A stretch of DNA of 64,000 bases from Oscillospiraceae bacterium. GTDB lineage: Bacteria > Bacillota > Clostridia > Oscillospirales > Oscillospiraceae. Positions 20,643 to 56,474 of this stretch are shown one piece after another; within the stretch, counting starts at the first letter, position 1; each line of letters starts with the position of its first letter. The notes under the pieces are model-generated. The model was not told where the DNA came from, searched no databases, and worked only from the letters and a program-made list of their open reading frames with translations. The stretch is taken from assembly GCA_902787755.1 (NCBI GenBank), contig CADAHL010000009.1, positions 18,257 to 82,256 of the forward strand, written 5' to 3'. Position numbers and translations under genes: made by a program.

Positions 20643-21152
20643 TTAGCTGTCGAAGGCCGGGTTTACGGCGTAGAGGTTCTTCTGATCCATCCGGTCCATG
20701 CTCAGCCGCAGACCCTCGCCGAAACGCTGATAGTGGACCACCTCCCGCTCCCGCAGGAAGCGGATCACGTCGTTCACGTCCGGATCGTCGGACAGGCGGA
20801 GAATGTTGTCATAGGTCACCCGGGCCTTCTGCTCGGCGGCCAGATCCTCGTTCAGATCGGCGATCACGTCGCCCTTGACCTGCATGGAGGCCGCCGTCCA
20901 GGGAAAACCGGAAGCTGCGGTGGGGTAGACCCCGGCGGTGTGGTCCACGAAATAGGTCTCCAGTCCCGCCCGCTTGACCTCTTCCGGGCTCATCTCCCGG
21001 GTCAGCTGATGAATAATGGCCGCCACCATCTCCAGGTGCCCCAGCTCCTCCACGCCGATATCCGTCAACAGACCCTGCAGTTCGGGGTAGGGCATGGAGT
21101 AGCGCTGGTGCAGATAGCGCATGGACGCGCCGAGCTCCCCGTCAGGACCACC
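20643..21152 (-). pseudogene. cotJC: cotJC, 3' part (separated from its start by the prophage)
   Basis: Codes for residues from GGPDGELGASMRYLHQRY onward to the stop, the bulk of a CotJC/manganese-catalase-like spore coat protein (HLEMVAAIIHQL, LNEDLAAEQKARVTYD and REREVVHYQRF carry the ferritin-like metal ligands). The first 29 codons lie at 56388-56474 beyond the prophage. Joining the halves through the shared GGTGG core gives an uninterrupted 198-aa protein. No start codon suitable for this part is seen in the phage side of attL, so it is silent while the phage is integrated. Confidence 0.92.
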
Positions 21153-21177
21153 TAATTGCAGAAACCGATAATAATCA
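21141..21177. other. attL
   Basis: Junction of cotJC with the phage. The host half contains GTCAGGA. The core CCACC is at 21148-21152. The phage half is TAATTGCAGAAACCGATAAT (21153-21172). The phage half is the mirror image of the phage half in attR. The integrase stop codon (21175) lies at its edge. Confidence 0.88.
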
Positions 21178-22620
21178 GCTATAGAAAAAAACGAGCAGCT
21201 TGGCGTTGGCTTTGTCGTAGACGATACGGGAAATGATAGATCGCAGGGCCTGGCCTTTGGCGGACTCGCTCTGGTCGGGATCCCGGATGATCTCCAGGAC
21301 GGAGAGGACCTTCTCGGAGAAGGCCACCGGATCCAGTTGGGCGGCTTTGAATTTTGCCTGGGCATCCTGACGCTGCTGCTCCAGATCGGCGATCTGAGCG
21401 GCCAGGGCGGCCTTGCGGGAGGCGAATTCCTCCAGCGTATATATCCCGCCCTCGTAGGCTTCCATGATCCGGCGCATCTTTAGATTCTCCACGTCGATCA
21501 GGTGGTCGAAGTCCGGGGCGTCGGTGTCGGGCCTGCTGGGCTGCTCCGGATCTACCGGAAAGGACAGCGTTACCACGGCGTTTTCCAGGTACTGCGTGAT
21601 CAGACGGTTGGCCTTGGCAATCGATAGGCAGTGGGAGGTATGGCACTTGCCCCGCCCATAATTGTGGCACTGCATGGATGGACAGGCGGCGGTCAGACGG
21701 ATGAGAGTCGCGCCGCAGCAGGAGCAGCGAACAAGGCCCTTCAGCATCCACTCCAGGGGCTGCTCTCGGCGCTGATAGCGTCCGAACCGGGCGGCTTCGC
21801 TGGCGATCCGCGCCTGGACGGCGTCGAACAGCTCCCGGTCCACGATGGGCTCATGGGTGCCGGGATACAGATTCTCCTCGCAGTCCTTCCCGCCCCGGTG
21901 GTAGTTGCCCTTGCCGCCGGCCTTATTCCAGCGGAGATAGCCGATATAGACCGGATTCGTCAGCATGTACTCCACCCAACGGTTGTCCGGAGGGTTCCCG
22001 CGCTTGGTTCGGATTCCAGCCTGGCCCAGCTCGGTGGCGATGGTGCGCATACCCTTTCCGCCCAGGTAGTCCCGGAAGATCCGCCGCACCAGATCGGCGT
22101 CGGCGTTGGGAATATAGCGCTTGTCGATGATATCATAGCCAAAGCTGGGAGCAGTTACCGGTTCGCCCCGGCTGAGCTTCTCGGCCATGCCGCGCTTCAC
22201 TTCGCCGGAGAGCCGGATGGAATAGAATTCGTCCATCCACTCCAGGATCCGCTCGATCAGACTGCCGAAGGGGCCCTCGGCCAGCGGCTCGGAGATGGAG
22301 ATCACCTCCACGCCGGAGCGGGCCAGCATGGATTTGTAGACGATGCTCTCCTCCTGGTTCCGGGCGAAGCGGCTGAACTTCCAGACCAGGATCACTTCAA
22401 AGGGCTTTTCTGTTGCTTTGGCATAGCCGATCATCTGGTTGAAGGCCGGGCGCTTCCTGGCGCTGCGGCCGGAGATCCCGTCGTCTGTGAACACGAATTC
22501 ATCCGGCACGACCATGTCGTTCCTGGCTGCATAGTCCCGGATCAGCTTCAGCTGCGAGTCCAAAGAATATTCGTCCTGCTTCTCCGTGGACACCCGGAGA
22601 TAAGCAGCAGCGGTGCGCAT
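21175..22620 (-). CDS. int: Large serine recombinase (phage integrase)
   Basis: 481-aa serine integrase. Catalytic domain with Ser11 in AYLRVSTEKQ, DDGISGRSARKRPAFNQM and VWKFSRFARNQEE; recombinase domain near residues 160-260; zinc ribbon with CSCCGATL and later Cys pairs (CHNYGRGKCHTSHC); and a C-terminal coiled coil (LAAQIADLEQQRQDAQAKFKAAQ). This class recombines short attB and attP sites without host factors and needs a directionality factor to excise. Its gene lies directly beside attL, as usual. It reads away from the repressor block. Confidence 0.95.
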   Translation of the reverse strand: MRTAAAYLRVSTEKQDEYSLDSQLKLIRDYAARNDMVVPDEFVFTDDGISGRSARKRPAFNQMIGYAKATEKPFEVILVWKFSRFARNQEESIVYKSMLARSGVEVISISEPLAEGPFGSLIERILEWMDEFYSIRLSGEVKRGMAEKLSRGEPVTAPSFGYDIIDKRYIPNADADLVRRIFRDYLGGKGMRTIATELGQAGIRTKRGNPPDNRWVEYMLTNPVYIGYLRWNKAGGKGNYHRGGKDCEENLYPGTHEPIVDRELFDAVQARIASEAARFGRYQRREQPLEWMLKGLVRCSCCGATLIRLTAACPSMQCHNYGRGKCHTSHCLSIAKANRLITQYLENAVVTLSFPVDPEQPSRPDTDAPDFDHLIDVENLKMRRIMEAYEGGIYTLEEFASRKAALAAQIADLEQQRQDAQAKFKAAQLDPVAFSEKVLSVLEIIRDPDQSESAKGQALRSIISRIVYDKANAKLLVFFYS

Positions 22621-22646
22621 CGACAGCGCCTCCTTTCTTCACATCC

Positions 22647-22673
22647 CGCCCCGGAGAGATCCGGGGCGTTTTT
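22647..22673 (+). terminator. Plus-strand terminator hairpin between lipoprotein and integrase genes
   Basis: CGCCCCGG and CCGGGGCG around AGAGAT, then TTTTT on the plus strand, which is antisense to the genes on both sides. A near copy with the same loop lies at 23263-23291. It would stop plus-strand transcripts entering the lysogeny genes; on the minus-strand message it is only a stem-loop between cistrons. Confidence 0.55.
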
Positions 22674-22684
22674 CTTTACTCAGA

Positions 22685-23242
22685 TCAGCGATCCAGGGAG
22701 AGGCCAACAGTCGACAAAAACGCCAGCCGGGCATCCACCACTTCGAGGCGGCACTGATCCACCAACTCCTCGCACTCTTCGAGCAGCTTGCGGTATTCGC
22801 TGCCGCCAAATTGGGCGTAGCTCACGATGTACAGGGAATAATTCTGAGTGGCGTCGAAGAAGGCCTGGGCGGCTTTGATGTAATCCTGAGCGTAGTCGTT
22901 GTTTACGCCGATGACCCGGAGCTCGGACGGGTATTTCTTGTCTATCCGCTCCGTGATGCTAACGACGTCCTCCTTGTCGCTGCGGATGGGGCCGTGGTTA
23001 TCGTAATATTTGTCGTAGGCGTGCACGTATTCATCGGCGCCGACCATGAAATTCCAGAGGTTCCGGTCGATGGCGGCATAGTCCCGCGCGGTCTCCTCAT
23101 CCAGGTGCAGCACAGGCTCGGCTTCATATCCCTCGACCCGCTCCGTGTACAGAATCTGGATGTACCTGGACGGCTTGGCACCGCAGGCGGTCAGCGTCAG
23201 GAGCATGGACAGGGCCACCAAAAGCACAATGATTCTTCTCAT
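22685..23242 (-). CDS. Phage-encoded lipoprotein, possible superinfection-exclusion factor
   Basis: 185 aa with a type II signal peptide: MRRIIVLLVALSMLLTLTAC, lipobox LTAC. The mature part is soluble and rich in Tyr, Asp and Glu; I recognise no domain. Its position between integrase and repressor on the lysogeny strand is where several Gram-positive phages carry exclusion lipoproteins that block DNA injection by related phages, such as Ltp of phage TP-J34. The role here is inferred from position and signal only. Confidence 0.75.
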   Translation of the reverse strand: MRRIIVLLVALSMLLTLTACGAKPSRYIQILYTERVEGYEAEPVLHLDEETARDYAAIDRNLWNFMVGADEYVHAYDKYYDNHGPIRSDKEDVVSITERIDKKYPSELRVIGVNNDYAQDYIKAAQAFFDATQNYSLYIVSYAQFGGSEYRKLLEECEELVDQCRLEVVDARLAFLSTVGLSLDR

Positions 23243-23262
23243 AGTCTCCTCCTTATTCTGCC

Positions 23263-23296: not shown

Positions 23297-23698
23297 CTAC
23301 CGATCCATTGCCAGGTTGCCGTGCTGGTAGAACCAGACGGCCTTGATCATGAAGTCGTCAGTCACGTCAAAATACTCGGCCAGCTGCCATGGCTCAGAAT
23401 AGCCTTGGGAGACGGCGCGCTTCAGCTCGTCCTTCGGGACGAGTTTTTTTATTGCCCATTTGTCGGCCTTATTCTCGCAGCGCTGCCGGATCCAGCGAGG
23501 ATCCCCGCGGCTGTAGAACGCCGCCCTGGCGCAGTGGCCGAGCTCGTGGGCGAAGTGCACCCGCTCCACTGCTCCGCCATAGGCCAGGGACGCATCCATG
23601 CAGATCGCGCCGGGGACAGACATAGACACGGTCTCGGGAATGTTGCCGGTAAAGACTTCAACGCCGAGCATCTCGGCGGTCTGGAACAATTCGATCAA
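23297..23698 (-). CDS. ImmA/IrrE-family metallopeptidase
   Basis: 133-aa zinc peptidase with HELGH in VHFAHELGHCARAAFYS and a downstream acidic helix (NKADKWAIKKLVP) supplying the third ligand. ImmA proteins cleave phage or ICE repressors on induction. Its start overlaps the stop of the repressor gene by four bases, the usual repressor-protease pairing, so repressor proteolysis is the likely induction route. Confidence 0.88.
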   Translation of the reverse strand: MIELFQTAEMLGVEVFTGNIPETVSMSVPGAICMDASLAYGGAVERVHFAHELGHCARAAFYSRGDPRWIRQRCENKADKWAIKKLVPKDELKRAVSQGYSEPWQLAEYFDVTDDFMIKAVWFYQHGNLAMDR

Positions 23699-24045
23699 TT
23701 CTTTCCCTTTTCCTTTTCTCTCTGTTTTACGAAGGCTGCGAAGCGCTTGACCTCTTCATACATCTCGTCGGTAATCTCGCCGTCCCCACCAAAGAGGGCA
23801 AATTTGATGTCGTCATCCGTGGCCGGGCTGCCCTTTGCCGGGGTGGGGGTGGGGTCGTCGGTTTTTCCGATCAGGTAGTCGATGCTGACACCGTAAAAAT
23901 TGGCAAAGCGGATCAGCATCTCCGAATTCGGCTCGCGGTCCTCCTTCTCATAGCTGATATAGGTAGTATATGGAATTCCAAGAGCTTGTGCAGTCTCTTT
24001 CATATTTCTCCCGGAGTTTTGCCGCAGTTGCTTCAGCTTGATCAT
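23695..24045 (-). CDS. XRE-family (CI-like) phage repressor
   Basis: 116 aa with an N-terminal helix-turn-helix (IKLKQLRQNSGRNMKETAQALGIPYTTYISYEKEDREP) and a short acidic C-terminal region. The start at 24045 is chosen because GAGGAGGTGATCTA precedes it; the open frame reaches 24102. It faces the Cro-like gene across the operator region and is coupled to the ImmA gene, so it is very likely the lysogenic repressor and the ImmA substrate. Confidence 0.9.
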   Translation of the reverse strand: MIKLKQLRQNSGRNMKETAQALGIPYTTYISYEKEDREPNSEMLIRFANFYGVSIDYLIGKTDDPTPTPAKGSPATDDDIKFALFGGDGEITDEMYEEVKRFAAFVKQREKEKGKN

Positions 24046-24103
24046 TAGATCACCTCCTCTTTCAATAATTATTACACAATATGAGTAAAATAGCAACAAC
24101 AAA

Positions 24104-24219: not shown

Positions 24220-24241
24220 GCATGAAATGGGAGGTGAGTTT

Positions 24242-24445
24242 TTGTTTTATCCGAACATAGCGGCGGAGCGGGCCAAGCGCCGGATGAGCCTGGATGCGAT
24301 GGCCAGAGAACTGGGAGTGACCCGAAAGACCATCTATAACTGGGAGACGTCCGGGAACATCCCGCAGTCTGCCCTGGAGCGGATGTCGGCACTGTTTGGC
24401 TGCAGTATCGACTACCTCCTGAATAATCCTCAGGCAACACAATGA
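24242..24445 (+). CDS. Cro-like helix-turn-helix regulator
   Basis: Short XRE protein (67 aa), almost entirely one HTH domain: NIAAERAKRRMSLDAMARELGVTRKTIYNWETSGNIPQSALERMS. The likely start is the TTG at 24242, because the ribosome-binding site GGGAGGTGAG begins right at the upstream in-frame ATG (24227). It is the first rightward gene and lies just past the perfect operator palindrome, as expected for Cro. Confidence 0.85.
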   Translation: MFYPNIAAERAKRRMSLDAMARELGVTRKTIYNWETSGNIPQSALERMSALFGCSIDYLLNNPQATQ

Positions 24446-24526
24446 TAGCAGAAACACAGTCCGATAAACCGGACACGCAAGTGTCCAAGCGGTCGAAACA
24501 TATCTTTGAAGGAGGTGAGGAAGAAC

Positions 24527-24748
24527 ATGGCGGCGAAGAAGAGCAGAGGCAGGGAGATCACGGTGGTCGGGATCCTGATCCTGGAGGACGGGACCCCGGT
24601 GCCCATGGACGAGGCCACGCCGGAGCAGATCGAGCATTTCCGGGAACGGGCCACGGCCAGGCTCAGCGCCGTCATGAGCGCCTACTATACACATCATCCG
24701 GAAGAATACCTGAAATTAGGAAGGACGAAAGACAATGGCGACGTGTAA
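24527..24748 (+). CDS. Small early phage protein, unknown
   Basis: 73 aa starting MAAKKSRGREITVVGILILEDG; GGAGGTGAGG lies a few bases upstream, which is why I prefer 24527 to the in-frame ATG at 24506. Beyond a basic N-terminus and a helical stretch (EQIEHFRERATARLSAVMSAYY) I see no known motif. It overlaps the next gene by 14 bases. Confidence 0.7.
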   Translation: MAAKKSRGREITVVGILILEDGTPVPMDEATPEQIEHFRERATARLSAVMSAYYTHHPEEYLKLGRTKDNGDV

Positions 24749-27518: not shown

Positions 27519-28620
27519 GGTATGGCAGCCGGGCGGGCATAAGGAGACTCGGGACGAGAAGCTGTACCGCCTGCAGACCAATGCTCAGCGGATCGCCCTG
27601 CCCTACGGGGCCAAGGTCAACATGGCCCAGAGGCGGATCAGGGAGTGGGCGGATTTCTGTTGGGATAACGGAAAAAACTACGCCGTATCGGTGGGTGGCC
27701 TGGACAGCATCACTCTCCTGGCCCTGTGCCGCAAGACGCTGCATGAGGACGTGCCAGGGATCTCTGTCTCGGTCCTGGAGGACAAGAGCATCCAGCGGGT
27801 CCACCGGGAGATGGGCGTGATCCCGATCAAGCCTCTGAAAAGCAAGGTCCAGGTCCTCCAAGAGGACGGCTTCCCAGTGGTCTCCAAACTGGCCGCCGCC
27901 AAGATCGCCCGGCTTCAGACGCCAGGAGACGACAGCCCCATCATCCGGGCCTATATGACCGGGGACATGGGCGCCTGGGGCGGCTTCGGCCACAACGACC
28001 GCTTCAAACTGCCAGACCGCTGGGTGGAGCTTTTCGGAGGACTGTATGCGGAAATGCGCCCGGACCTCAAATGCAAGGTTGCGCCGTTTAAGGTCTCTGA
28101 TCAGTGTTGCTACTGGCTCAAGGAGCTGCCTGCCCAGCAGTACCAGCAAGAGCACAACATCTGGCCATTCCTTGGCCTGATGCAATCTGAGGGCGGACGC
28201 CGGCAGTATTCCCTCCGGGCCCACGGCTGCAACTATGTGGGCGAGACTACGGCCAGAAGCTGCCCGTTCAACTACTTCACCCGTCAGGATCTTCTGCAGC
28301 TTGCCCTGGATCTGGGCGTGCACGTGCCGGATATCTACGGCGAGATTGTGATGGACCCGGACGGCACCCTGCGGACCACCAAGGCCCAGAGGACAGGCTG
28401 CTCCATGTGCGGCTTCGGGATCCACCTGGACAGCAGGCCCCACCACTTTGACCTGCTTCGGGAGCAGAATCCCAAGGAGTGGGAATTTTGGATGTACCGA
28501 TGCTGCACCGACCCGGCGACGGGCGAGAAATACGGCTGGGGCCGTGTCCTGGACTGGATCGGCGTGGGCTGGGAAAACCGCCCGGACACCGATTGCGTCG
28601 GGCAATACTCATTGTTTTAG
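27511..28620 (+). CDS. PP-loop protein of the PAPS reductase/DndC-like family
   Basis: 369 aa starting MVKVWQPGGHKETRDE. The ATP-pyrophosphatase loop is VGGLDS (61-66), a variant of SGGKDS with Ser to Val and Lys to Leu, in YAVSVGGLDSITLLALCR. Two cysteine groups, GCNYVG...SCPF and GCSMCGFGIH...RCC, could bind an Fe-S cluster as in adenylyl-sulfate reductases and DndC. No cysteine desulfurase or other Dnd gene is present, so phosphorothioation is not supported. It immediately precedes two DNA methyltransferase genes and probably works with them or supplies sulfur chemistry; inference. Confidence 0.8.
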   Translation: MVKVWQPGGHKETRDEKLYRLQTNAQRIALPYGAKVNMAQRRIREWADFCWDNGKNYAVSVGGLDSITLLALCRKTLHEDVPGISVSVLEDKSIQRVHREMGVIPIKPLKSKVQVLQEDGFPVVSKLAAAKIARLQTPGDDSPIIRAYMTGDMGAWGGFGHNDRFKLPDRWVELFGGLYAEMRPDLKCKVAPFKVSDQCCYWLKELPAQQYQQEHNIWPFLGLMQSEGGRRQYSLRAHGCNYVGETTARSCPFNYFTRQDLLQLALDLGVHVPDIYGEIVMDPDGTLRTTKAQRTGCSMCGFGIHLDSRPHHFDLLREQNPKEWEFWMYRCCTDPATGEKYGWGRVLDWIGVGWENRPDTDCVGQYSLF

Positions 28621-28628
28621 GGGGAAGT

Positions 28629-30347
28629 ATGAAAGCACAAACAAATCTGTTCAATGAGATCATCGTCGACAACTTTGCAGGAGGCGGTGGAGCCTCCACG
28701 GGAATCGAGCTGGCTACTGGGCGCCCGGTGGCCATTGCCATCAACCACGACCCGGCGGCGATCCTGATGCACAAGACGAATCACCCGCACACTCTGCACC
28801 TGCAGGCGTCCGTCTGGGACGTGGACCCTGTGGACGTTTGCGCGGGCCGCCCGGTTGGCCTGGCATGGTTCAGCCCGGACTGCAAGCACTTTTCCAAGGC
28901 CAAGGGAAGCGCCCTGGTAGACCGTAACATCAGGGGCCTTGCCTGGATCGTTCTGCGCTGGGCGGGAACCGTGCGGCCCAGAGTCATCATGCTGGAAAAC
29001 GTGGAGGAGTTCCAGACCTGGGGTCCGGTACGCAAAGGCAAGCCGGTCAGAAGCAAGCAGGGCCAGACTTTCCGAAAGTGGCTCAGTCAGCTTGAGGCTC
29101 TGGGCTATCGGGTGGAGCATCGGGAACTTGTTGCTGCTGACTACGGCGCCCCAACTACCCGCAAGCGCTTTGTGCTGATCGCCCGCTGTGACGGTCGGCC
29201 TATCGTCTGGCCGGAGCGGACCCACGCACCGAATGGCAGCGAGGAGGTCAGATCCGGGCGGCTTCTGCCATGGCGGTCCGCCGCTGAGATCATCGACTGG
29301 ACCGTGCCGATGTTTTCCATCTTCGCCAGCAAGCAGGAGATCCGGGAGCAATACGGCGTAAATGCTGTTCGCCCGCTGGCCGACAACACCCTGCGGCGAA
29401 TCATCCGCGGCGTTGACAAGTTCACGATCCGGAGTGGGAAGCCCTTCCTGGTGCCGACCGGCTATGGTGAGCGCAATGGTCAGGCGCCGAGGATCCATGA
29501 CATTGACCGTCCGGTCCCCACGGTTGTCTCCACCTGCAAACAAAATCTGGTGGAGCCTGTGCTGGCACCGGTTACGCTCTCCAATACCGGCGGCTCATCC
29601 GGCACTCCCGCAGATCAGCCCATCGGTACTGTGCGCACGGCGGGCGGACAGATCCTGGCCTCCGCCAATCTGATCCAGTACCACACCGAGCAGACCGAGA
29701 GTGTCCGGGCAAACGGGCTGAGAGAGCCGCTTCCCACGGCGGACGCCTCCAACCGTTACGGGCTGGTAGCCGCAAATCTGGTGGAATATTATACCGGCGG
29801 TAGGCCGTTAAGCCTGGAGGCCCCGATGCACACCGCCACTTCCCACGACCGGGAATCGCTGATTGCCGCCCATGTGGCGGAGTTCAAGGGCCAGGACCTG
29901 GGCCAAAGCCCGGAGAGGCCGCTGCGCACCATAACGGCAAGCGCGGGAGAGTTTGCGGCTGTTGCGGTCCGGGTGGAGCAATATGCCCCCGGAACGGCGC
30001 TCGGCTGCTGGCCGCAGATACGCGCCCTACTCAACAAGCACTGCGGTTATTCGCTTGCTGACGACCAGATTCTTCTGCTGCGGATTGGCGGGACCTGGTA
30101 TTACCTCTCGGACATTACCATGCGGATGCTGACGCCGAGGGAGCTGTACGCGGCCATGGGCTTTCCGCCGGATTACATCATCGACCGGGACTATACCGGC
30201 AAGGAGTATCCAAAGACCCAGCAGGTGGCCCGATGCGGGAACGCCGTGTGCCCGCCGATGGCCTCCGCTGTGGTCCGGGCCAATTTTCCAGAGTGGGCTG
30301 TGCAGATCCGTACCATGGCGGAGCTGGAAAAGGCGGTGGCGCTGTGA
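28629..30347 (+). CDS. C5-cytosine DNA methyltransferase
   Basis: 572 aa. Motif I VDNFAGGGGASTGIE, motif IV SPDCKHFSKAKG with catalytic Cys85 (PDC in place of the usual PPC), motif VI MLENVEEF (123-125 ENV), motif VIII TTRKRFVLIAR, a long target-recognition region, motif IX-like MRMLTPRELYAAMGFP and motif X RCGNAVCPPMA. All catalytic motifs are present. No cognate restriction gene is adjacent, so it is an orphan methylase, probably protecting phage DNA. The stop overlaps the GTG start of the next gene. Confidence 0.9.
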   Translation: MKAQTNLFNEIIVDNFAGGGGASTGIELATGRPVAIAINHDPAAILMHKTNHPHTLHLQASVWDVDPVDVCAGRPVGLAWFSPDCKHFSKAKGSALVDRNIRGLAWIVLRWAGTVRPRVIMLENVEEFQTWGPVRKGKPVRSKQGQTFRKWLSQLEALGYRVEHRELVAADYGAPTTRKRFVLIARCDGRPIVWPERTHAPNGSEEVRSGRLLPWRSAAEIIDWTVPMFSIFASKQEIREQYGVNAVRPLADNTLRRIIRGVDKFTIRSGKPFLVPTGYGERNGQAPRIHDIDRPVPTVVSTCKQNLVEPVLAPVTLSNTGGSSGTPADQPIGTVRTAGGQILASANLIQYHTEQTESVRANGLREPLPTADASNRYGLVAANLVEYYTGGRPLSLEAPMHTATSHDRESLIAAHVAEFKGQDLGQSPERPLRTITASAGEFAAVAVRVEQYAPGTALGCWPQIRALLNKHCGYSLADDQILLLRIGGTWYYLSDITMRMLTPRELYAAMGFPPDYIIDRDYTGKEYPKTQQVARCGNAVCPPMASAVVRANFPEWAVQIRTMAELEKAVAL

Positions 30348-32839
30348 CCTATCTTGACTTTTTGCGTTCCAAAATTGAGGTTGCCCCGGTGAGCGGCTTT
30401 ACCGTGGATCCGTCAGCGCTCTCCCCGGTGCTCAAGCCTCACCAGCGGGATGCGGTGGTATGGGCGCTGGCCGGAGGACGGCGGGCACTGTTTGAGAGCT
30501 TCGGCCTGGGTAAGACCCTCCAGGAGCTGGAATACTGCCGCCTGGTGCTGCAGCATGAGGGCGGGAAGGCCCTGATCGTGCTGCCGCTGGGCGTCCGCCA
30601 GGAGTTCAGACGTGACGCTGTGCAGCTGTTGGGCATGGAGGAACCGCGATACATCACAAGCCCAAGCGAGGCCACAGAGGTCGGAAAGATCTATCTGACC
30701 AACTATGAGCGTGTCCGGGACGGCGAGATCGACCCGAAGGACTTCACCGCCTGCGTCCTGGATGAGGCGGCGGTGCTGCGGTCCTTTGGCAGCAAGACAT
30801 ACCAGACCTTTCTTCCCAAGTTCAAGGGTGTCAAATATAAGCTCGTCGCCACAGCGACACCCGCCCCAAACCGGCTGAAAGAGCTGATCCACTACGCCGG
30901 ATTCCTTGAGGTCATGGATACCGGACAGGCCCTGACCCGCTTCTTTCAGCGGGACAGCACAAAGGCCAACAATCTGACCCTGTACCCGCACAAGGAAGAA
31001 GAGTTTTGGCTGTGGGTATCTTCCTGGGCGCTGTTCATCTCTAAACCTTCGGATCTGGGGTATGACGATGAGGGCTACGCCCTTCCGCCAATGGATGTCC
31101 GGCCTCACATGATCTCCAGGGGTTACGAGGGGATCACCGACAAGGACGGACAGTACAAGTTAATGAACGACGCCGCCACCAGTCTGCAAGAGGCAGCGCG
31201 GGAGAAGAAAGATAGCATTGCGGCCCGCTGTGCCATGGCCAAAGAGATCGTGGACAGCGACCCGGACGCCCACTTCATCCTATGGCATGACCGGGAGGAG
31301 GAACGGCACGAGCTGAAGCGACTCATGCCGGAGGCAGTAGAGATCTACGGCACGATGGACTACGACGAGCGAGAGCGCAGGGTGATGGACTTCTCCGACG
31401 GGAAAACCCGGCTCTTCGCCACAAAGAAAAGCCTCTCCGGTTGCGGCTGCAACTTCCAGCGGCATTGTCACCGGGCTATCTTTGTGGGCATTGACTATGA
31501 ATTCCATGATTTCATCCAGGCGGTCCACCGCATCTACCGCTTCCTCCAGACGGAGCAGGTCATTATCGACATCCTCTATACCGAGGCAGAGGAGCCGATC
31601 TTCCGGGTGCTGATGGAGAAGTGGAAGCAGCACAACGAGCAGCAAGAGCGGATGCGGGAAATCATCCGGAAATACGGGCTGAACGAGGCGGCACAGGCCG
31701 AGCGCATGGCCCGAAGCATAGGAGTTGAGACAGTGAGAGTTGACGGAAAACGCTTCACCGCCATTCATGGCGACTGCGTGGAGGAGACGGCCAAGATGGA
31801 GGAGAACAGTGTTGACATGATCCTGACTTCCATTCCCTTCTCCAATCATTACGAGTACACACCAAGCTATAACGACTTCGGCCACAACGAGAACACGGCC
31901 CGCTTCTTCGAGCAGATGGATTTTCTCAGCCCGGAGCTGCTGCGGGTTCTGCGCCCCGGCCGGGTGTTTGCCTGCCACGTCAAGGATCGGGTGCTCTTCG
32001 GAAACGCCACAGGAACCGGAATGCCAACCATGGAGCCTTTCCACGCCATGTGCATCCAGCACTACATGAAGCATGGTTTTCAGTACTTCGGCATGATAAC
32101 GGTGGTGACCGATGTGGTGCGGGAGAACAATCAGACCTACCGCCTGGGCTGGACGGAGCAGTGCAAGGACGGAACCAAAATGGGCGTTGGCTGCCCCGAG
32201 TACATTCTGCTGTTCCGGAAGCTGCCCACCGACACCTCCACAGCTTATGCTGATGTGCCGGTCAAAAAGAGCAAAGGGGACTATACCCGCGCCCAGTGGC
32301 AGATCGACGCCCACGGCTATTGGCGCAGCAGCGGGGACAGGCTGCTGACCAAAGCGGAGATTCAGGCCGCACCGGTAGACAGGCTGCAGGCCATGTACCG
32401 TAAATACAGCCGGGAGACAGTCTATGACTATGCCGAGCACGTCCAGATTGCAAAGAAACTGGACGAGGACGGCCATCTGCCTGCCACCTTCATGGTGGTG
32501 GCGCCTGGATCCTGGTCCGAAGAAGTCTGGGACGATGTAAACCGGATGCGTACGCTGAATACCAGCCAGAGCCAAAGGCGCCAGCAGATGCACGTCTGCC
32601 CGCTGCAGTTTGACATTGTAGACCGACTCATTAACCGCTACACCAATGAGGGTGATCTGGTCTTTGACCCCTTCGGCGGGATCGGCACCGTGCCCCTGCG
32701 GGCGGTCATTGCCGGGAGACGTGGCCTGATGACGGAGCTCAACCCGGACTATTTTCGGGACGCTGTTGGCTACCTGGACGCCGAAGAAGCGAAGATCGAC
32801 ACGCCGACGCTATTTGATCTAATGGAGGGCCAGGTATGA
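30344..32839 (+). CDS. Fusion of an SF2 (SNF2-like) helicase and a DNA amino-methyltransferase
   Basis: 831 aa starting with GTG. N-terminal half: helicase motif I FGLGKT (GLGKT 54-58), motif II LDEAA (140-143), motif III ATATPAP, and motif VI QAVHRIYRF in a C-terminal helicase domain. C-terminal half: methyltransferase of permuted order, motif IV as LTSIPF (495-499; usual form TSPPY), then SAM motif FDPFGGIGTVPLRAV (775-781 DPFGGIG) near the end. One chain could move along DNA and methylate adenine or cytosine exocyclic amines. It is overlapped by the C5 methylase gene and may also stand in for a replicative helicase; no other helicase is present in the phage. Confidence 0.87.
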   Translation: MTYLDFLRSKIEVAPVSGFTVDPSALSPVLKPHQRDAVVWALAGGRRALFESFGLGKTLQELEYCRLVLQHEGGKALIVLPLGVRQEFRRDAVQLLGMEEPRYITSPSEATEVGKIYLTNYERVRDGEIDPKDFTACVLDEAAVLRSFGSKTYQTFLPKFKGVKYKLVATATPAPNRLKELIHYAGFLEVMDTGQALTRFFQRDSTKANNLTLYPHKEEEFWLWVSSWALFISKPSDLGYDDEGYALPPMDVRPHMISRGYEGITDKDGQYKLMNDAATSLQEAAREKKDSIAARCAMAKEIVDSDPDAHFILWHDREEERHELKRLMPEAVEIYGTMDYDERERRVMDFSDGKTRLFATKKSLSGCGCNFQRHCHRAIFVGIDYEFHDFIQAVHRIYRFLQTEQVIIDILYTEAEEPIFRVLMEKWKQHNEQQERMREIIRKYGLNEAAQAERMARSIGVETVRVDGKRFTAIHGDCVEETAKMEENSVDMILTSIPFSNHYEYTPSYNDFGHNENTARFFEQMDFLSPELLRVLRPGRVFACHVKDRVLFGNATGTGMPTMEPFHAMCIQHYMKHGFQYFGMITVVTDVVRENNQTYRLGWTEQCKDGTKMGVGCPEYILLFRKLPTDTSTAYADVPVKKSKGDYTRAQWQIDAHGYWRSSGDRLLTKAEIQAAPVDRLQAMYRKYSRETVYDYAEHVQIAKKLDEDGHLPATFMVVAPGSWSEEVWDDVNRMRTLNTSQSQRRQQMHVCPLQFDIVDRLINRYTNEGDLVFDPFGGIGTVPLRAVIAGRRGLMTELNPDYFRDAVGYLDAEEAKIDTPTLFDLMEGQV

Positions 32840-40385: not shown

Positions 40386-40411
40386 GTCACAACAACCAAA
40401 TACACCCGCAC

Positions 40412-40443: not shown

Positions 40444-40462
40444 CATGCCTGAAAGACAGGAG

Positions 40463-40511: not shown

Positions 40512-40533
40512 CTAAGAGGAAGGAGAGACTGAA

Positions 40534-41148: not shown

Positions 41149-42290
41149 ATCTGAAAGCACTGTACGAGAAGCGCGACGAGCTCCAGAACCAGCTGGACGC
41201 CATCGTCAACACCGCCCAGACCGAGGTCCGGGCCATGACTGAGGACGAGCAGGGCGAATTTGACCGCCTGGAGGGCGAGATCCGGGCCCTGGACGAGACC
41301 ATCGCGCGGGCCGAGCGGGCCAGAGCTGCCCAGCATCCTGCCCAGTCCGGCAGCCAGGAGACCGAGGAGCGGGCCGACGAGCAGGTCTTCGTGGACTACA
41401 TCCAGGGCCGCGTCAAGGAGATGCGCGCCGGCGAGCAGAATGTCACCATGGCAAACAACGGCGCCGTGATCCCCACGAGCATCGCCAACCGCATTATCAA
41501 GGCCGTGAAGGACCGCTGCCCCATCCTGGCCGGCGCTCAGATGTACGCCGTCAAGGGTACCCTGAAGATCCCCGTGTGGGGCAACGCCAACACCACCCAC
41601 AACATCCATGTGGGCTACCAGACCGAGTTCACCGAGATCACTGCTGACGCCGGCAAGTTCACCAGCGTCGACCTGGGCGGTTTCCTGGCCGGTGCTCTAA
41701 CCCTGATCGGCAAGAGCGTGGCCAACAACGCCGCCGTGGACGTGGTGGCCTTCATCATCGACGCCATGGCCGAGGAGATCGCCGTCTTCATCGAGGGCGA
41801 GCTGCTGAAGGGCTCCGGCACCAATGCTGCCCAGGGCGCCCTGAACACCACCAACAGCCTGACCGCTGCCGCGGCTGCCGCTGTCACCGCCGACGAGCTG
41901 ATCACTCTGCAGAGCAAGGTGAAGCAGGCCTTCCAGCGCAACGCCTGCTGGACCATGCACCCCGACACCTTCGCCGCGGTGAAGAAGCTGAAGGACGGCA
42001 ACAGCCGCTACCTGCTGCAGGACGATATCACCGGCGAATTCCCCTATCGCCTGCTGGGCAAGCCCGTGTATCTGTCCGACAACATGCCCACCATGGCCGC
42101 CGGCGCCAAGGCGATCCTGTACGGCGACTACTCCGGCCTGGCCGTGAACATGCGCGAGGCCATCTCCATCGAGGTCCTGCGCGAGAAGTACGCCACTCAG
42201 CATGCCCTGGGCGTCGTGGCCTGGTTCGAATTCGACTCCAAGGTCGCCAACGCTCAGAAGCTGGCCGTGCTGACCATGAAGGCGTCCTGA
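41145..42290 (+). CDS. HK97-fold major capsid protein
   Basis: 381 aa. Residues 1 to about 95 form the coiled-coil delta/scaffold domain (LYEKRDELQNQLDAIVNTAQTE). The mature part follows, with IPTSIANRIIKAV, LKIPVWGNANTTHNIHVGYQTE, and the C-terminal region YGDYSGLAVNMREAISIEVLREKYATQHALGVVAWFEFDSKVANAQKLAVL typical of the family. Codon usage is strongly biased to C/G-ending codons, as expected for the most expressed phage gene. Confidence 0.95.
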   Translation: MNLKALYEKRDELQNQLDAIVNTAQTEVRAMTEDEQGEFDRLEGEIRALDETIARAERARAAQHPAQSGSQETEERADEQVFVDYIQGRVKEMRAGEQNVTMANNGAVIPTSIANRIIKAVKDRCPILAGAQMYAVKGTLKIPVWGNANTTHNIHVGYQTEFTEITADAGKFTSVDLGGFLAGALTLIGKSVANNAAVDVVAFIIDAMAEEIAVFIEGELLKGSGTNAAQGALNTTNSLTAAAAAAVTADELITLQSKVKQAFQRNACWTMHPDTFAAVKKLKDGNSRYLLQDDITGEFPYRLLGKPVYLSDNMPTMAAGAKAILYGDYSGLAVNMREAISIEVLREKYATQHALGVVAWFEFDSKVANAQKLAVLTMKAS

Positions 42291-43722: not shown

Positions 43723-44289
43723 ATGGCAAAATACGGTGCAAGATACATCAAATTTGCGCCCTTCGCGTCCACCAATCCCGAGCCGGAGAACGCCTATCCC
43801 AACTACGGTACGGTTGTGGACATGAGCAAGCTGGTCAAGGTGTCGGACAATCCTTCCGTGGCGGAGGGCAAGCTTCACGGTGACGACGAGCTGGCCGAAT
43901 ACGCCGCTGAATTTACGGAGGCCGACGTCGACGTGGAGGTGACCGAGGTTTCCAACGCCATGGGTGCCGCCATCCTGGGGGCGACTCTGGGCACGGACGG
44001 CGACCTGGAGCAGGGCGGCGACGACGCTGCCCCCTACGGCGGCCTGGGCTTCATCACCTGCAAGGTGATCAACGGCGTCAAGGGCTATGCCGGCGTCTAT
44101 TATCCCAAGGCAAAGGCCCAGATCCAGGGCGAGGAGTATGAGACCAAGGGCGAAAGCATCACCTTCGTCACCGGTAAGCTGCGCTTCAAAGCTTTCCAGG
44201 CAGCCAACGGCAAGTGGAAGGTGACTTCCGGGGTCAAGGCGACCTTCGCGGCGGCCAAGACCTGGCTTGACGGGAAGCTGGGCGGATGA
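43723..44289 (+). CDS. Major tail tube protein
   Basis: 188 aa of the phi13/tail-tube family: KYGARYIKFAPFAS, LHGDDELAEYAAEFTEADVDVEVTEVSN, YGGLGFITCKVINGVKGYAGVYYPKAKAQIQGEEYETKGESITF. High, biased GC like the capsid gene, fitting strong expression. Overlaps the tail chaperone gene by four bases. Confidence 0.9.
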   Translation: MAKYGARYIKFAPFASTNPEPENAYPNYGTVVDMSKLVKVSDNPSVAEGKLHGDDELAEYAAEFTEADVDVEVTEVSNAMGAAILGATLGTDGDLEQGGDDAAPYGGLGFITCKVINGVKGYAGVYYPKAKAQIQGEEYETKGESITFVTGKLRFKAFQAANGKWKVTSGVKATFAAAKTWLDGKLGG

Positions 44290-44753
44290 TCTCCTACAGC
44301 TACAGGGGTGGCAATTACCACCTCTACTTCAACTTGGCCGCTCTGCTGGACTTTAAAGAAAAGTATCAGGATCAGAACCTGGTGGAGCTGATCTCCCGGA
44401 ATGACCGGGAGGGCCTGGAGGCGGCGGTGTGGCTGCTGTGCCAGCTGAGCCGTCAGGGCGAGCTCTATCGGCGCTATCTGGGGGAGGACCCGGGCCAGGT
44501 GCTGGATTATGAGCGCACGCTCCTGAGCCTGACGCCCGCCGAACAGCCCATGATGCAGGCGGCGCTGATGGCCGCGGTGGCCGAGGGCTTCCGCCGGGAG
44601 CACCCGGAGGAAGGGGCGGACGATCCCTGGCTGCAGGAATATGAGGCAGAGCACAGCACAAAAAAAGCCTCAGCCGGGCGGAGATTTGTCTGCTTCTGTC
44701 GCAGGCTCTGGGCCTCTCTCTCAAAGAGGGGCTCCATCTCCCGCCCGGCTTGA
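44286..44753 (+). CDS. Tail assembly chaperone, unshifted form (gpG-like)
   Basis: 155 aa if no frameshift occurs. Residues 1 to about 125 are the chaperone domain (MISYSYRGGNYHLYFNLAAL, then KYQDQNLVELISRND). The part after the slippery site (ASAGRRFVCFCRRLWASLSK) looks like out-of-frame sequence; the conserved continuation is in the -1 frame. Confidence 0.85.
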   Translation: MISYSYRGGNYHLYFNLAALLDFKEKYQDQNLVELISRNDREGLEAAVWLLCQLSRQGELYRRYLGEDPGQVLDYERTLLSLTPAEQPMMQAALMAAVAEGFRREHPEEGADDPWLQEYEAEHSTKKASAGRRFVCFCRRLWASLSKRGSISRPA

Positions 44754-44824
44754 TGTCGGACATGCTCCGACTGAGGCGGGGCACAGAGGAGGAAGATAAG
44801 GATGCCGGCGACACGGACGATTAG
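44286..44824 (+). CDS. Tail assembly chaperone, -1 frameshift product (gpGT-like)
   Basis: A -1 slip on A AAA AAA (44660-44666) joins the chaperone to a second frame coding SLSRAEICLLLSQALGLSLK, continuing to DKDAGDTDD and a TAG at 44822. This is the classical G/GT arrangement of siphovirus tail assembly, in which a minority long form recruits tail-tube subunits to the tape measure. The T part ends 23 bases inside the tape-measure gene. Confidence 0.85.
44660..44749 (+). promoter_or_regulatory. Programmed -1 ribosomal frameshift signal
   Basis: Slippery heptamer A AAA AAA in the zero frame (codons ACA AAA AAA). Six bases later comes a stable stem: GCCGGGCGG (44673-44681) pairs perfectly with CCGCCCGGC (44741-44749), extended by AGA/TCT past a one-base bulge. 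Spacer and stem are what stimulate -1 slipping in known tail genes. Confidence 0.85.
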
Positions 44825-47252
44825 CACCACCATTGCCCTCAACGGCGAAGCGGCCTACCGCAGGAGCATGGAGGAGATCAACCGCAGCCTGCGGACGCTC
44901 AAGGCAGAGACCCAGGCCGCTGCCGCCGCTTTCCAGAGCGAGGGCCGGACCATGCAGAGCCTGACCAGCTATCAGCAGCGGCTCCAGGCTCAGTATGATC
45001 AGCTCAGAGTCAAGCAGGAGAGCCTGAAGCAGGCGGTCCAGGATGCGTCCCGGATCTACGGCGACAACTCCAAAGAAGCAGATCGGCACAGGGCCGCTCT
45101 GGCCAATGTGGAGGCGGAGATGAACCGCCTGCAGGGCGAGATGAACCGGACGGAAACCGAGCTGCAGGAGCTGCGCCAGGCCGAGCAGGGCGCCGCAGAC
45201 GGCGCCAACGACATGGCCGGCGGGATGCAGGGCGCGGCCCAGTCCATGGGCGTGAGCACCATCGCCATCGGCAACATGCTGGCGGATCTGGCCCGCAGGG
45301 CGGCCCGCTTCCTGGCGGACGCCGCAAAAGCGGGGATCGAGTACAACGCTGAGATGCAGTCCTACACCCAGGCGCTGACCAACTCCCTGGGCAGCGCCGA
45401 GGCAGCCGCTGCAGCCCTCAGCGCCATCAAGCTGGACGCGGCGGTGACGCCCTATTCCGTGGCGGCTCTGACCAGAGCCAATCAGCTGCTGATCTCCACG
45501 GGCATCAGCGCCGAGAGCGCCCGCGCTACCATCAACGCCCTGTCCGAGGCGATCTCCGCTACGGGCGGCGGCAACGACGAGCTGCAGCGCATGGCCCAGA
45601 ATCTGCAGCAGATCCAGAACGTGGGCAAGGCCAGCGCCATGGATATCAAGCAGTTTCAGATGGCCGGTATCGACGTCTACGGCATCCTGGCTGACTACAC
45701 AGGTCAAACCGTGCAAGAGGTACAGGATCTGACCATCACCTACGATCTGCTCAGCAAGGCCCTGCAGAACGCCGCCTCGGAGGGCGGAAAGTATTACGGA
45801 GCCAACGCCGCCCAAGCGGCCACTCTTAACGGACAGATCTCAACGCTGACGGACAACATCAAATCCAAGCTGGGAGAGGCCATGGAAGGCGTCTCCGATA
45901 TGCTCAGCGAGGATATCCTGCCGAAAGTCAATGAATTTGTCAGCAACATCGACGTCGGCAAAACCATGGAATTTTTCGGCAGCTATTACCGGATCATCCT
46001 ACCTGTGGCAGGGCAATTGGAGAACCTGCTGCCGCTGCTGCGGGCAGTAAAAGGAGAGTTCGACACCTGGGATAACGCCACCGGGAACGTGGAGAGCCTG
46101 GCCCTTGCACTGGACGAACTGATGCAGAGAAAGGCCGAGCTGGAAGCGCAGGGCGTGACCGAGGACGGTGCGGGCGGGATCTTTGATCCGCGGGTGGACG
46201 AATATCAGACCCTGCTCAATCAGATCGCGGAGCTGCGGGCAGAGATTGCCAGACTGCGGGGCGAGGAGGCGGAAGCCTCCGCCGAGCAGGAGACCCACAG
46301 CCAGCACATGACCGAGACCGCGGAAAAGGCCCAGGAACTGGCGGATCAGATCGCCGCCCTGGAGGCGGCCTACACCGAAGCATACGAGGCTGCCAAGACC
46401 AGCCTGGAAGGACAATTTGATCTCTTTGAGAAGGTGGATCAGGCGGCCACCATCAGCGTCCAGGACATGATCGCCGCCATGGGCACCCAGGCGGACTACT
46501 GGAACGCCTACAGCGAGAATCTGACTATGGTCCAGGGGCTGACTGAGCAGAGCATCGGGCTGAACGCGGACCTGGTGGCCGGGCTGAACGACGGCAGCGC
46601 CAAGAGCGTCCAGGCGGTGGCCTCTCTGGCAGCGGGCTATGAGGAGGCCCTGGCCAAGGGACCGGCGGCGGTGGAAGCCTATATCGCATCCATCAACGCG
46701 GCCTATGAGAGCCAGCAGGCAGCCATCGCGGGAGCGGCGGACGCCATGGCCAAGGGGCAAACCGATTTCGACAACCAGATGGCGGAGATCCAGGCCAAGG
46801 CCGAAGAGCTTGTGACAGCAATGGACAAGTCCGCCGAGATGGGGACGGCAGCCTACAACTCCATGCGGAGCTATATGGAGCAGATTGCCTATTCCGAGCA
46901 GCCTGCCATTGAGCAGATGTTTGCTCTGGGCCAGGCAATCTCCCAGGCCCTCCAGGACGGAATCGACAGCAAGAGCGTGACCGGCCCAAGGATCGCCCAC
47001 GGCGGCAACGGTATGATTGCCTATGACGGCTCCCATGCCTCTGGTCTGGACTACGTCCCCTTTGACGGCTACATCGCGGAGCTGCACCGGGGCGAGATGG
47101 TCCTGAACGCCGCTGCCGCGGATGCGCTGCGGCAGGGAGCGGGCGGAGGCGGAACCGTGGTAAATGTCACCGTCAACACCCGAGAGATGAGCCGGTCTCA
47201 GACCGATTATCTGATCCGCCAGCTGAACCAGGAGCTGGGCAAGGAGGCGTGA
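44802..47252 (+). CDS. Tail tape measure protein
   Basis: 816 aa; its length implies a tail of roughly 120 nm by the usual rule of thumb. N-terminal coiled coil (RSMEEINRSLRTLKAETQAAAAAF, LRVKQESLKQAV), a hydrophobic stretch, the conserved tape-measure segment MAQNLQQIQNVGKASAMDIKQFQMAGIDVYGILADYTG, further coiled coils, and a Gly-rich C-terminus with ASGLDYVPFDGYIAELHRGEMVLNAAAADAL typical of the family. No peptidoglycan hydrolase domain is seen. Confidence 0.93.
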   Translation: MPATRTISTTIALNGEAAYRRSMEEINRSLRTLKAETQAAAAAFQSEGRTMQSLTSYQQRLQAQYDQLRVKQESLKQAVQDASRIYGDNSKEADRHRAALANVEAEMNRLQGEMNRTETELQELRQAEQGAADGANDMAGGMQGAAQSMGVSTIAIGNMLADLARRAARFLADAAKAGIEYNAEMQSYTQALTNSLGSAEAAAAALSAIKLDAAVTPYSVAALTRANQLLISTGISAESARATINALSEAISATGGGNDELQRMAQNLQQIQNVGKASAMDIKQFQMAGIDVYGILADYTGQTVQEVQDLTITYDLLSKALQNAASEGGKYYGANAAQAATLNGQISTLTDNIKSKLGEAMEGVSDMLSEDILPKVNEFVSNIDVGKTMEFFGSYYRIILPVAGQLENLLPLLRAVKGEFDTWDNATGNVESLALALDELMQRKAELEAQGVTEDGAGGIFDPRVDEYQTLLNQIAELRAEIARLRGEEAEASAEQETHSQHMTETAEKAQELADQIAALEAAYTEAYEAAKTSLEGQFDLFEKVDQAATISVQDMIAAMGTQADYWNAYSENLTMVQGLTEQSIGLNADLVAGLNDGSAKSVQAVASLAAGYEEALAKGPAAVEAYIASINAAYESQQAAIAGAADAMAKGQTDFDNQMAEIQAKAEELVTAMDKSAEMGTAAYNSMRSYMEQIAYSEQPAIEQMFALGQAISQALQDGIDSKSVTGPRIAHGGNGMIAYDGSHASGLDYVPFDGYIAELHRGEMVLNAAAADALRQGAGGGGTVVNVTVNTREMSRSQTDYLIRQLNQELGKEA

Positions 47253-54994: not shown

Positions 54995-55017
54995 GCGGAG
55001 ATACAGGAGGCATAACC

Positions 55018-55767
55018 ATGTGGAAAGTCAATGGCCACGATCTGCAAATGCTTGACATTCTTTCCCGCTTTGTCTCCAATGGCATGACCCCCACGGCGGC
55101 AGAGGCCATGTGGGGCAACATCGCCGAGGAGAGCGGCGGCGAGTCCAACCGGGTACAGGGGGATTTCTCCCCCGCCCGGAGTGCGAGCAAGACATACACC
55201 AAGGACGTGGACGAGGGCCGTATCAGCCCCTACAGCTTTGCCCACGACAGCAGGGGCTACGGCCTTGTCCAGTGGACTTTCTGGAGCCGGAAGCAGGGGC
55301 TTCTCAACTACGCCAGGAGCAGGGGTGTCTCCATCGGCGACGCCGGGATGCAGGCAGACTACATCGTGGTGGAGCTCAAGCGGGACTACCCGGCATTGTG
55401 GCAGTATCTGACGCAGACCACGGACCTCTACGAGGCCACCAGGAAGATCTGCCTGCAATACGAGCGCCCTGCCGTCAACAACGTGGATGTGCGCTACAAG
55501 GCCGCGCAGGAGGCCAAGGCGGTCTGGGATGCCGCGGAGAAGACCGAGCGCTATTGGCCTCCCCGCACGGTGGATAAGGGCATGGACGGCCCGGACGTGG
55601 CGGCTCTGCAAGCGCTTCTCACCGCCCACGGCTACACCGTCCGCACCATCAGCGGGGTCTTTGACGAGGCCACGGAGGCGGCGGTCAAACGGTATCAGCA
55701 AGGCAACGGGCTTGACGCGGACGGCGTGGCCGGGCCCAAGACCTGGGCGAGCATTTTGGAAATCTGA
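55018..55767 (+). CDS. Endolysin: tail-lysozyme domain plus peptidoglycan-binding domain
   Basis: 249 aa. Residues 15-150 form a phage tail lysozyme-type domain (AEAMWGNIAEESGGESNRVQGD, GYGLVQWTFWSRKQGLLNYA); Glu in IAEESGG is the probable catalytic acid. Residues about 185-249 are a PG_binding_1 domain (GMDGPDVAALQALLTAHGYTVRTISGVFDEATEAAVKRYQQGNGLDADGVAGPKTW). Beside the holin, so it is the lysis enzyme and not a tail component. Confidence 0.88.
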   Translation: MWKVNGHDLQMLDILSRFVSNGMTPTAAEAMWGNIAEESGGESNRVQGDFSPARSASKTYTKDVDEGRISPYSFAHDSRGYGLVQWTFWSRKQGLLNYARSRGVSIGDAGMQADYIVVELKRDYPALWQYLTQTTDLYEATRKICLQYERPAVNNVDVRYKAAQEAKAVWDAAEKTERYWPPRTVDKGMDGPDVAALQALLTAHGYTVRTISGVFDEATEAAVKRYQQGNGLDADGVAGPKTWASILEI

Positions 55768-55781
55768 AGGAGGAGAAGAAA

Positions 55782-56300
55782 ATGAATACACCCGATAAGG
55801 CATTGGAGATCAAGGCCATCATCACGGCCGTATTGGCGTTTTGCACGGCGCTATGGGGCTGGCTCGGCTGGGCTGTGATCACACTGATCTGCTGCATGGC
55901 CCTGGATTGGATCACCGGAACCTGGGCCGCACGCGCGAGAGGGGAGTGGTCCAGCGCTGTGGCCAGAGCGGGCTGCTGGCATAAGCTCGGTGAGGTCGTG
56001 GCTATGCTGGTGGCTGCGCTGTGCGACATTGCTATCAAGGTAGTACTCAACAGTACAGCGGCGCCGATTCTGAGCGGCTGGGAATACGGGAATTACATCA
56101 GCCTCGTAGTGGCCATCTGGTACATATTCACGGAGCTCGGATCTATTATGGAAAATGCGATCAAGCTCGGCGCTCCGATCCCGGAATGGCTGCCCCGCGG
56201 CATCGCCTGGCTCAAAGGAAAAGCAGACGCGGCTACGCCGGTGCCGATTGCAGAAAAGCCTCCCGACGAGTACCAGGGAAAGCACGAGAAGAAAGAATAA
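55782..56300 (+). CDS. Phage holin
   Basis: 172 aa with three or four membrane segments: ITAVLAFCTALWGWLGWAVITLICCMALDWITG, VVAMLVAALCDIAIKVVL and YISLVVAIWYIFTELGSIMEN. The DWITG motif and the IxTELxSIxEN motif are typical of the Firmicutes toxin-secretion/phage lysis holin family. Charged C-terminal tail (EYQGKHEKKE). Last phage gene before attR. Confidence 0.9.
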   Translation: MNTPDKALEIKAIITAVLAFCTALWGWLGWAVITLICCMALDWITGTWAARARGEWSSAVARAGCWHKLGEVVAMLVAALCDIAIKVVLNSTAAPILSGWEYGNYISLVVAIWYIFTELGSIMENAIKLGAPIPEWLPRGIAWLKGKADAATPVPIAEKPPDEYQGKHEKKE

Positions 56301-56312
56301 TAGATACAAAGA

Positions 56313-56345
56313 CACCGCCCAGGAAGGATTTCGGTCTCTCCTGGG
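56313..56345 (+). terminator. Terminator at the end of the late operon
   Basis: CCGCCCAGGA pairs with TCCTGGGCGG and is followed by ATTTTG. It stops late phage transcription just before attR and the opposing cotJ genes. Confidence 0.8.
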
Positions 56346-56355
56346 CGGATTTTGT

Positions 56356-56395
56356 CATTATTATCGGTTTCAACAACTTGGGCCACCGATCTGAC
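56356..56395. other. attR
   Basis: The phage half CATTATTATCGGTTTCAACA (56356-56375) mirrors the phage half of attL at 19 of 22 aligned positions. The core CCACC is at 56383-56387. The host half is GATCTGAC (cotJC). Reconstructed attB is GTCAGATCGG-TGGTCCTGAC, itself an inverted repeat (GTCAG/CTGAC). Confidence 0.88.
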
Positions 56396-56474
56396 TGACA
56401 ATAAACTTCGCCAGAGCCGGGTTGGGCCGTTTGATCTTCACCGGGTACTGCAGCTTCTTTTCATAGATGAACAT
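56370..56474 (-). pseudogene. cotJC: cotJC, 5' part (cut by the prophage)
   Basis: Starts MFIYEKKLQYPVKIKRPNPA and runs to IVSQIGG, then reads five further codons into phage DNA to a stop at 56370 (34 aa). The N-terminal match to CotJC is clear (YEKKLQYPVK, NPxLAK). The remainder of the gene is at 20643-21152. It lies three bases after the cotJA-cotJB frame in normal operon order. Confidence 0.9.

Follow-up and report, generated by a model that had tools for sequence, protein, structure and literature searches.

Prophage insertion in the spore-coat gene cotJC of an Oscillospiraceae bacterium, and a guild of serine-recombinase elements that split the same gene

In the gut family to which the Oscillospiraceae bacterium studied here belongs, the spore-coat gene cotJC is frequently split by mobile elements whose exact excision would rebuild it. 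The window, i.e., the whole stretch of 64,000 nucleotides that was analysed (contig CADAHL010000009.1 of assembly GCA_902787755.1), carries cotJC cut after codon 29 by a 35,235-bp prophage, which sits inside this sporulation gene with a short repeat at each junction. The 5' part (codons 1–29; 56388–56474, minus strand), placed by sequence join, and the 3' part (codons 30–198; 20643–21152, minus strand), placed by sequence join and Pfam, share 5 bp, GGTGG in the sense of the gene, which read CCACC in the strandless attL core (21148–21152) and attR core (56383–56387). Joining the halves at this shared repeat gives a single stop-free frame of 198 codons (MFIYEKK...NPAFDS*), whose residues 1–178 match the Pfam family Mn_catalase (PF05067) at E 2e-53, and the predicted attP would have a perfect 15-bp inverted repeat, GAAACCGATAATAAT, framing the core (left arm 21161–21175, right arm 56357–56371, no strand assigned, both computed from the predicted attP). 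The initial annotation had described the interruption, the in-frame join and an otherwise intact cotJ operon, and all three descriptions hold, with CotJA and CotJB present as a fusion in one open reading frame (ORF) (56478–56963, minus strand, start more likely near 56917). To the eye, CotJB of Faecalispora jeddahensis is a separate ORF, unlike the fusion in the window. A mother-cell (sigma-K-like) promoter of the operon, AC-N16-CATAGAATG, was read by eye at 56965–56997 on the minus strand. The initial annotation had also pointed out that an intact second cotJC would make the split copy irrelevant; this escape from the split was rejected, as no other copy was found in the window assembly (86 contigs, 92.3% complete).

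We regard it as somewhat probable that the phage was integrated by an integrase of clade A (one of five recombinase clades described below) at a conserved attB in cotJC, that it can leave precisely, and that the gene is rejoined in the mother cell. The window prophage would then be a member of a large guild of cotJC-intervening elements. According to this model, the clade-A serine integrase would insert the phage at the conserved attB, from which exact exit is possible, and during sporulation the integrase together with a directionality factor would excise the element in the mother cell. Transcription of the rebuilt in-frame cotJC would be driven by the cotJ operon's mother-cell promoter, and the prophage would stay in the forespore. 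The model draws on the site, the frame, the clade specificity and the conservation of the split genes, as well as on the excised junction in relatives, all of which were observed; the timing, the cell type and the directionality factor are what we infer.

The insertion site recurs among relatives of the integrase. When named genomes were searched with 17 aligned clade-A integrases, at least 524 relatives came up, of which the best 80 were kept. In 73 of these 80, no more than 400 bases separate the end of the integrase from a cotJC piece whose cut falls at codon 30 or close to it, given some scatter in the alignment ends. This same-site recurrence excludes chance for the observation in the window, and bears out the insertion point that the initial annotation wished to see compared among related genomes. 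A cotJC piece is absent beside the integrase in the other seven (L207, L222, L239, L242, L246, L255, L263). Among 80 viral contigs with integrase relatives, 22 carry a cotJC piece and 42 do not, while a further 16 terminate within 120 bases of the integrase. In three IMG/VR contigs (L036, L274, L275), the integrases of which are 65% identical to that of the window, inverted arms around a GGTGG core stand just after the integrase, and a lysin related to that of the window points towards the junction from the far side, as does a holin in L036 and L275. These contigs, which derive from strains other than the window's, appear to hold both ends of a window-type prophage joined together, i.e., an excised junction. 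Contig L277 (integrase 59% identical) has integrase and holin in the same order, and no inverted arms were found there by the script.

Excised junctions in contigs of related phages are also expected of an ordinary temperate phage, for which attB would be nothing but a conserved, vegetatively silent and dispensable gene, and which would excise only in lytic growth, so that CotJC would be lost in lysogens. Such an account agrees with the full phage gene set of the window prophage, with an integrase running in the same direction as the repressor genes, and with the missing clear mother-cell promoter signal in clade A and in the window prophage. It is a serious if unlikely contender, as it has to accommodate the finding that split copies, both those in old small elements and those of clade-A pairs, are conserved about as well as intact genes, and as four sites in one gene together with genus-wide non-phage elements fit neutral use poorly.

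The extent of splitting was assessed by searching CotJC in 400 genomes of the window's family, 318 of which had a match. Fragment-by-fragment resolution of 181 of these (348 fragment rows) revealed an intact copy in 42, three of them with extra pieces as well (G001, G103, G173). In 128 the gene is interrupted at one or more of four sites and no whole copy is present (loose rule), and 11 have only paralog, weak or unplaced pieces. As for the other 137, 132 (by subtraction) were taken as intact from one match of full-length strength, and five were unresolved (G044, G062, G077, G134, G194). Under a strict two-sided rule, by which one piece ends and another starts at the same site, 96 genomes are split, 17 of them at two sites; the window genome and G218 miss this rule by numeric limits only, and 30 others are one-sided. 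The four cut sites lie at codons ~30, ~62, ~135 and ~174, and exact junctions, for which 60 stretches were fetched, place the cores at codons 29–31 (A), 61–65 (B), 133–135 (C) and 173–175 (D). The gene joins in frame at 49 of 50 junctions, and in several rows the cut can be placed only to within a few codons; a stop lies near the automatic cut in L137, L155 and L166, automatic cuts are wrong in L148, L155 and L166, and L175 is unread. The exception, L137 (G391), shows oddly overlapping cotJC pieces with no clean join, as well as an odd recombinase.

Such cuts also bear on the idea that the pieces function as they stand, as truncated CotJC, with excision unnecessary. In the lysogen of the window the 3' part does belong to an open frame that starts further upstream (20643–21365), but the cuts at codons ~62, ~135 and ~174 run through conserved segments, doubly cut genes exist, as in the 17 genomes just mentioned, and short 5' parts are still recognisable and in frame; we consider this idea very improbable.

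Assembly artefact was ruled out as a source of the splits by two single-contig genomes with split cotJC (G098, G370) and by the isolate F. jeddahensis JCD, a spore-former according to the available part of its description (PMC4148971), in which a 4.5-kb clade-A element splits the gene. It is also countered by a triose-phosphate isomerase control, for which 188 of 200 genomes had a match; each row among the matches listed (to near E 1e-94) covers at least 243 of 257 residues, with a best E-value above 1e-50 in five genomes (G048, G105, G140, G177, G191); in the same 200 genomes, cotJC is split in 57 (loose rule).

A tree of 78 recombinases resolves five supported clades (rows: A 35, B1 25, B2 5, C 6, D 6), with L137 as a distant sister of D. 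For every labelled row except L137, the gene is cut at the site that goes with the clade of the recombinase, and clades B1 and B2 both use site B; 14 site labels were assigned by hand where the nearest-end rule failed. Of the clade-A rows, 28 lie directly at the codon-30 cut, and five, with no cotJC piece in the stretch, are unlabelled. The clade-A recombinases of G193 (L062/L089) and G227 (L087) lie beyond the 3' end of a codon-30-cut cotJC, perhaps by inversion or as a second element, and their site labels rest on the cut alone. Site D was at one point considered a tyrosine-recombinase site, which was ruled out by the serine recombinases present there.

The elements differ widely in size, from 1.9 to 50.9 kb at site A (9 elements), 3.0 to 32.9 kb at B (33), 5.6 to 29.6 kb at C (9) and 7.1 to 19.5 kb at D (3), measured on the same contig by the fragment rule, and most of those read (up to about 8 kb) consist of a recombinase with host-type cargo. 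Pfam confirmed pyrimidine-nucleoside phosphorylase, peroxiredoxin, TspO, an iron-dependent repressor with FeoB, and NADH/FMN plus pyridine-nucleotide redox subunits in the examples tested, cargo beyond these being named by eye; the FeoB/repressor, NADH-type redox, peroxiredoxin and TspO examples were drawn from L140, L148 and L248. In genus g98, a 3.0–3.8-kb site-B element with recombinase and phosphorylase is present in all six species sampled (L138, L147, L150, L154, L157, L158; phosphorylase named by eye, Pfam-tested in L138 only), with identities of 47–82% for the recombinase, 81–97% for the joined CotJC and 65–71% for the phosphorylase (five of six compared). Very similar clade-B1 recombinases occur in two genera (L159 and L162, branches 0.05–0.07), which points to recent horizontal transfer of a cotJC element.

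A second sporulation gene shows the same kind of interruption. Among 300 genomes searched for spoIIID, 241 had a match, and in 20 of these 241 the gene is in two or more pieces with weak best matches, a count taken from the table that includes possible contig breaks. In all three cases checked (G174, G389, G150), spoIIID is cut within the conserved segment FGISKSTVH/KDLTERLP and its 3' part is flanked by a serine recombinase, and G174 and G389 are members of the window genus. The loci concerned are L351–L356, and the pieces lie about 29 kb (G174) and 20 kb (G150) apart. Whether cotJC is a dedicated landing and splicing locus, with five clades on four segments and stacked cargo-bearing elements, all of which every sporulation must excise from the mother cell, and whether spoIIID is likewise, is a question that we answer in the affirmative by the slightest of leanings.

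What argues most strongly for the rejoining and use of split cotJC is the conservation of the split copies. In 19 same-genus split pairs, with fourfold-site differences of 0.25–0.64, the median ratio of first/second-position to fourfold changes is 0.165, compared with 0.136 in 27 intact pairs, and four same-genus clade-A pairs give 0.069–0.130. Neutral simulation at a difference of 0.3 produced a mean of 5.5 stops, with none of 200 runs stop-free, whereas all 40 clade-A 3' parts are free of stops from codon 32 to the end. Split genes are kept with much the same strength as intact genes, a finding difficult to account for without rejoining of cotJC.

The link of the host genomes to sporulation is consistent with this. 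SpoIVA occurs in all 17 split genomes tested, including the window genome, which holds both spoIVA and spoIIID. In the window genus, four genomes have intact cotJC together with SpoIVA, and four of the five genomes without cotJC also lack SpoIVA, the fifth (G334) having it; G125 has intact cotJC and no SpoIVA match. The two pieces of SpoIVA in G166 both end at contig ends, and were not counted as flanking an element.

It may also be asked whether excision needs to be specific to sporulation at all, since a minority of cells might always carry rejoined cotJC, and selection might act via them. The yin element of Clostridium botulinum, integrated and excised at all time points in the available part of the report (PMC10747680), lends this some substance. 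Against it stand the promoter of the cotJ operon, which is of mother-cell type (AC-N15..17-CATA) in 45 of 71 loci, compared with a mean of 11.2 and a maximum of 18 in 100 shuffles and with nine on the reverse strand, and a mother-cell-like -10 (CATAnnnT) near the start of 12 of 15 clade-B1 recombinase operons versus 27 of 236 cargo ORFs; we judge it rather improbable. In Clostridioides difficile, sigma-E and sigma-K are described as sharing the same -10 and differing in the -35 (ATA or AC), and mutation of sigK as lowering expression of two operons, cotJB2-cotD and cotF-cotCB (PMC3789822, in part).

Counts of the -10 within 460 bases upstream of the recombinase, given here as forward versus reverse strand with the shuffled mean and maximum, are 23 versus 13 of 32 regions in B1 (8.6/15), 6 versus 2 of 7 in C (1.8/5), 6 versus 4 of 7 in D (2.2/5), 7 versus 5 of 10 in B2 (4.5/8), and 74 versus 83 of 138 in A (58.2/75). 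The -10 is enriched in B1, where the motif was first noticed and then tested on the same elements, yet the -35 mostly falls outside both rules (ATA 6 of 32, shuffled mean 2.2 and maximum 6; AC 4 of 32, shuffled 5.7), and we assign these promoters to neither sigma-E nor sigma-K. Both boxes together provide hints only, in small sets: a sigma-K core in 3 of 7 D regions (0.4/2) and a sigma-E core in 3 of 10 B2 regions (0.6/2). In clade A, sigma-E-like promoters number 12 of 138 (shuffled 13.7, reverse strand 18) and sigma-K-like ones 26 of 138 (shuffled 19.6), and a stricter sigma-K form, 12 of 138 against 5.9 (shuffled maximum 12), is likewise a hint only. Candidate directionality factors are two families of small ORFs that precede the recombinase on its own strand, one found in 15 B1 elements (in L144 and L156 as the first of a longer row of genes) and the other in five D elements, with no Pfam match in the members tested.

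Several observations weigh against programmed excision and rejoining of cotJC. No clear mother-cell promoter signal was seen at the clade-A integrases (n = 138), and the window prophage has three such promoters where 3.4 are expected; no directionality factor was identified in it, the ORF at 24506–24748 being a weak candidate only. Of the 19 split pairs, 15 come from g98 and are hence non-independent, and about 28 of the 348 fragment rows, by a count made by eye, bear a stop flag, several of these rows extending past a junction (part of them checked). In g98 the divergences of recombinase and CotJC are not fully congruent, as in the L138–L150 pair (CotJC 90.9%, recombinase 51.6%). A CotJC-like paralog, 36–41% identical, which also occurs in some intact genomes, could stand in for cotJC in 13 of the 128 split genomes. 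Finally, the insertion in the window, which the conservation of split genes leaves undated, is possibly too recent for selection to have acted on it. The sporulation-linked switch proposed in the initial annotation survives in part: a site-specific serine-recombinase prophage does occupy a mother-cell-type gene, with in-frame repair and sporulation genes in the host, the excised junction is seen in relatives, and rejoining at the level of the class is backed by the conservation of split copies. What did not emerge is a tie between excision and sporulation for the window prophage itself, the integrase being co-directional with the repressor genes and clear mother-cell promoters missing; nor was the predicted sigma-E/K-controlled directionality gene borne out, the promoter scan being at chance. 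Sporulation timing for the window phage is something that we infer.

To our knowledge, programmed DNA excision in sporulation has been described in only a handful of cases, among them the intervening elements skin, SPbeta, vfbin, gin and yin. The target of skin is a sigma-factor gene, with a single site. Like the window prophage, skin in sigK is a prophage-like element that splits a mother-cell gene, as far as the available text describes it (PMC5025042), and SPbeta in spsM of Bacillus subtilis is an active prophage in a spore-envelope gene that is restored by excision (PMC4191935, in part); SPbeta differs in gene and host, and in a directionality factor stated to be under sporulation control (excerpts of PMC5595907). 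The gin element in gerE of Bacillus cereus, described in the same excerpts as without phage genes and dependent on a serine recombinase plus an extra factor, GirX, resembles the non-phage cotJC elements in its serine recombinase and mother-cell gene, and differs in having a single described site as against four sites and five clades (PMC5595907). The yin element in yabG of Clostridium botulinum is also prophage-like, with a serine recombinase and a sporulation gene as target, and has a circular form, but is described, in the part available, as unique to one strain (PMC10747680), whereas cotJC splitting is frequent in the sampled family. The nearest mention of cotJC concerns a deletion beside a C. 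difficile prophage (PMC11222575, in part), and no intervening elements in cotJC or spoIIID were found in the titles and abstract openings searched, a body of text outside which most subscription papers and preprints lie. The kind of element is known; what appears to be new is the gene that is targeted, the stacking at multiple sites and the scale.

One coat gene is interrupted in 96 to 128 of the 318 cotJC-bearing genomes sampled, or three to four in ten, and its split copies are conserved; this pattern suggests that spore formation includes a step of gene splicing that is widespread and has largely escaped notice. If this is true, such a developmental step has been missing from assemblies and annotations of gut spore-formers, and the terminal mother cell would offer a general explanation for a cost-free home of mobile DNA, the mother cell being a safe exit and cotJC a stable home for phages and cargo. 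The elements also provide naturally occurring collections of integrases for which both partner att sites are known.

The window element itself looks from its genes like a complete temperate phage, with integrase, repressor, terminase, portal, capsid, tail and lysis genes all present (Pfam and PHROG matches), and the closest of 50,697 public phage records, bajarodcaudo virus 3, is 41.6% identical. The large serine recombinase of 481 amino acids (21175–22620, minus strand; Pfam Resolvase and Recombinase, phrog_95 integrase) is of clade A and adjoins attL; it lies just downstream of, and on the same strand as, a lipoprotein-like ORF (22685–23242, named by eye, without Pfam match), a metallo-protease ORF (23297–23698, phrog_87) and a helix-turn-helix (HTH) repressor (23695–24102, Pfam HTH_3). 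Divergent from these, on the plus strand, are a Cro-like HTH gene (24227–24445, Pfam) and the small early ORF considered above as a directionality factor (24506–24748; phrog_26314, function unknown), to which at least 8 of the 17 related loci contain a match. The structural and lysis genes run on the strand opposite to the recombinase, i.e., the plus strand, and comprise terminase small and large subunits (36470–38636), portal, head protease and major capsid (38650–42290), major tail protein and tape measure (43723–47252), and endolysin and holin adjoining attR (55018–56300). Between the early and structural genes, at 28479–32839, lie a gene for a C5 DNA methylase and a large ORF that combines helicase and N4/N6 methylase.

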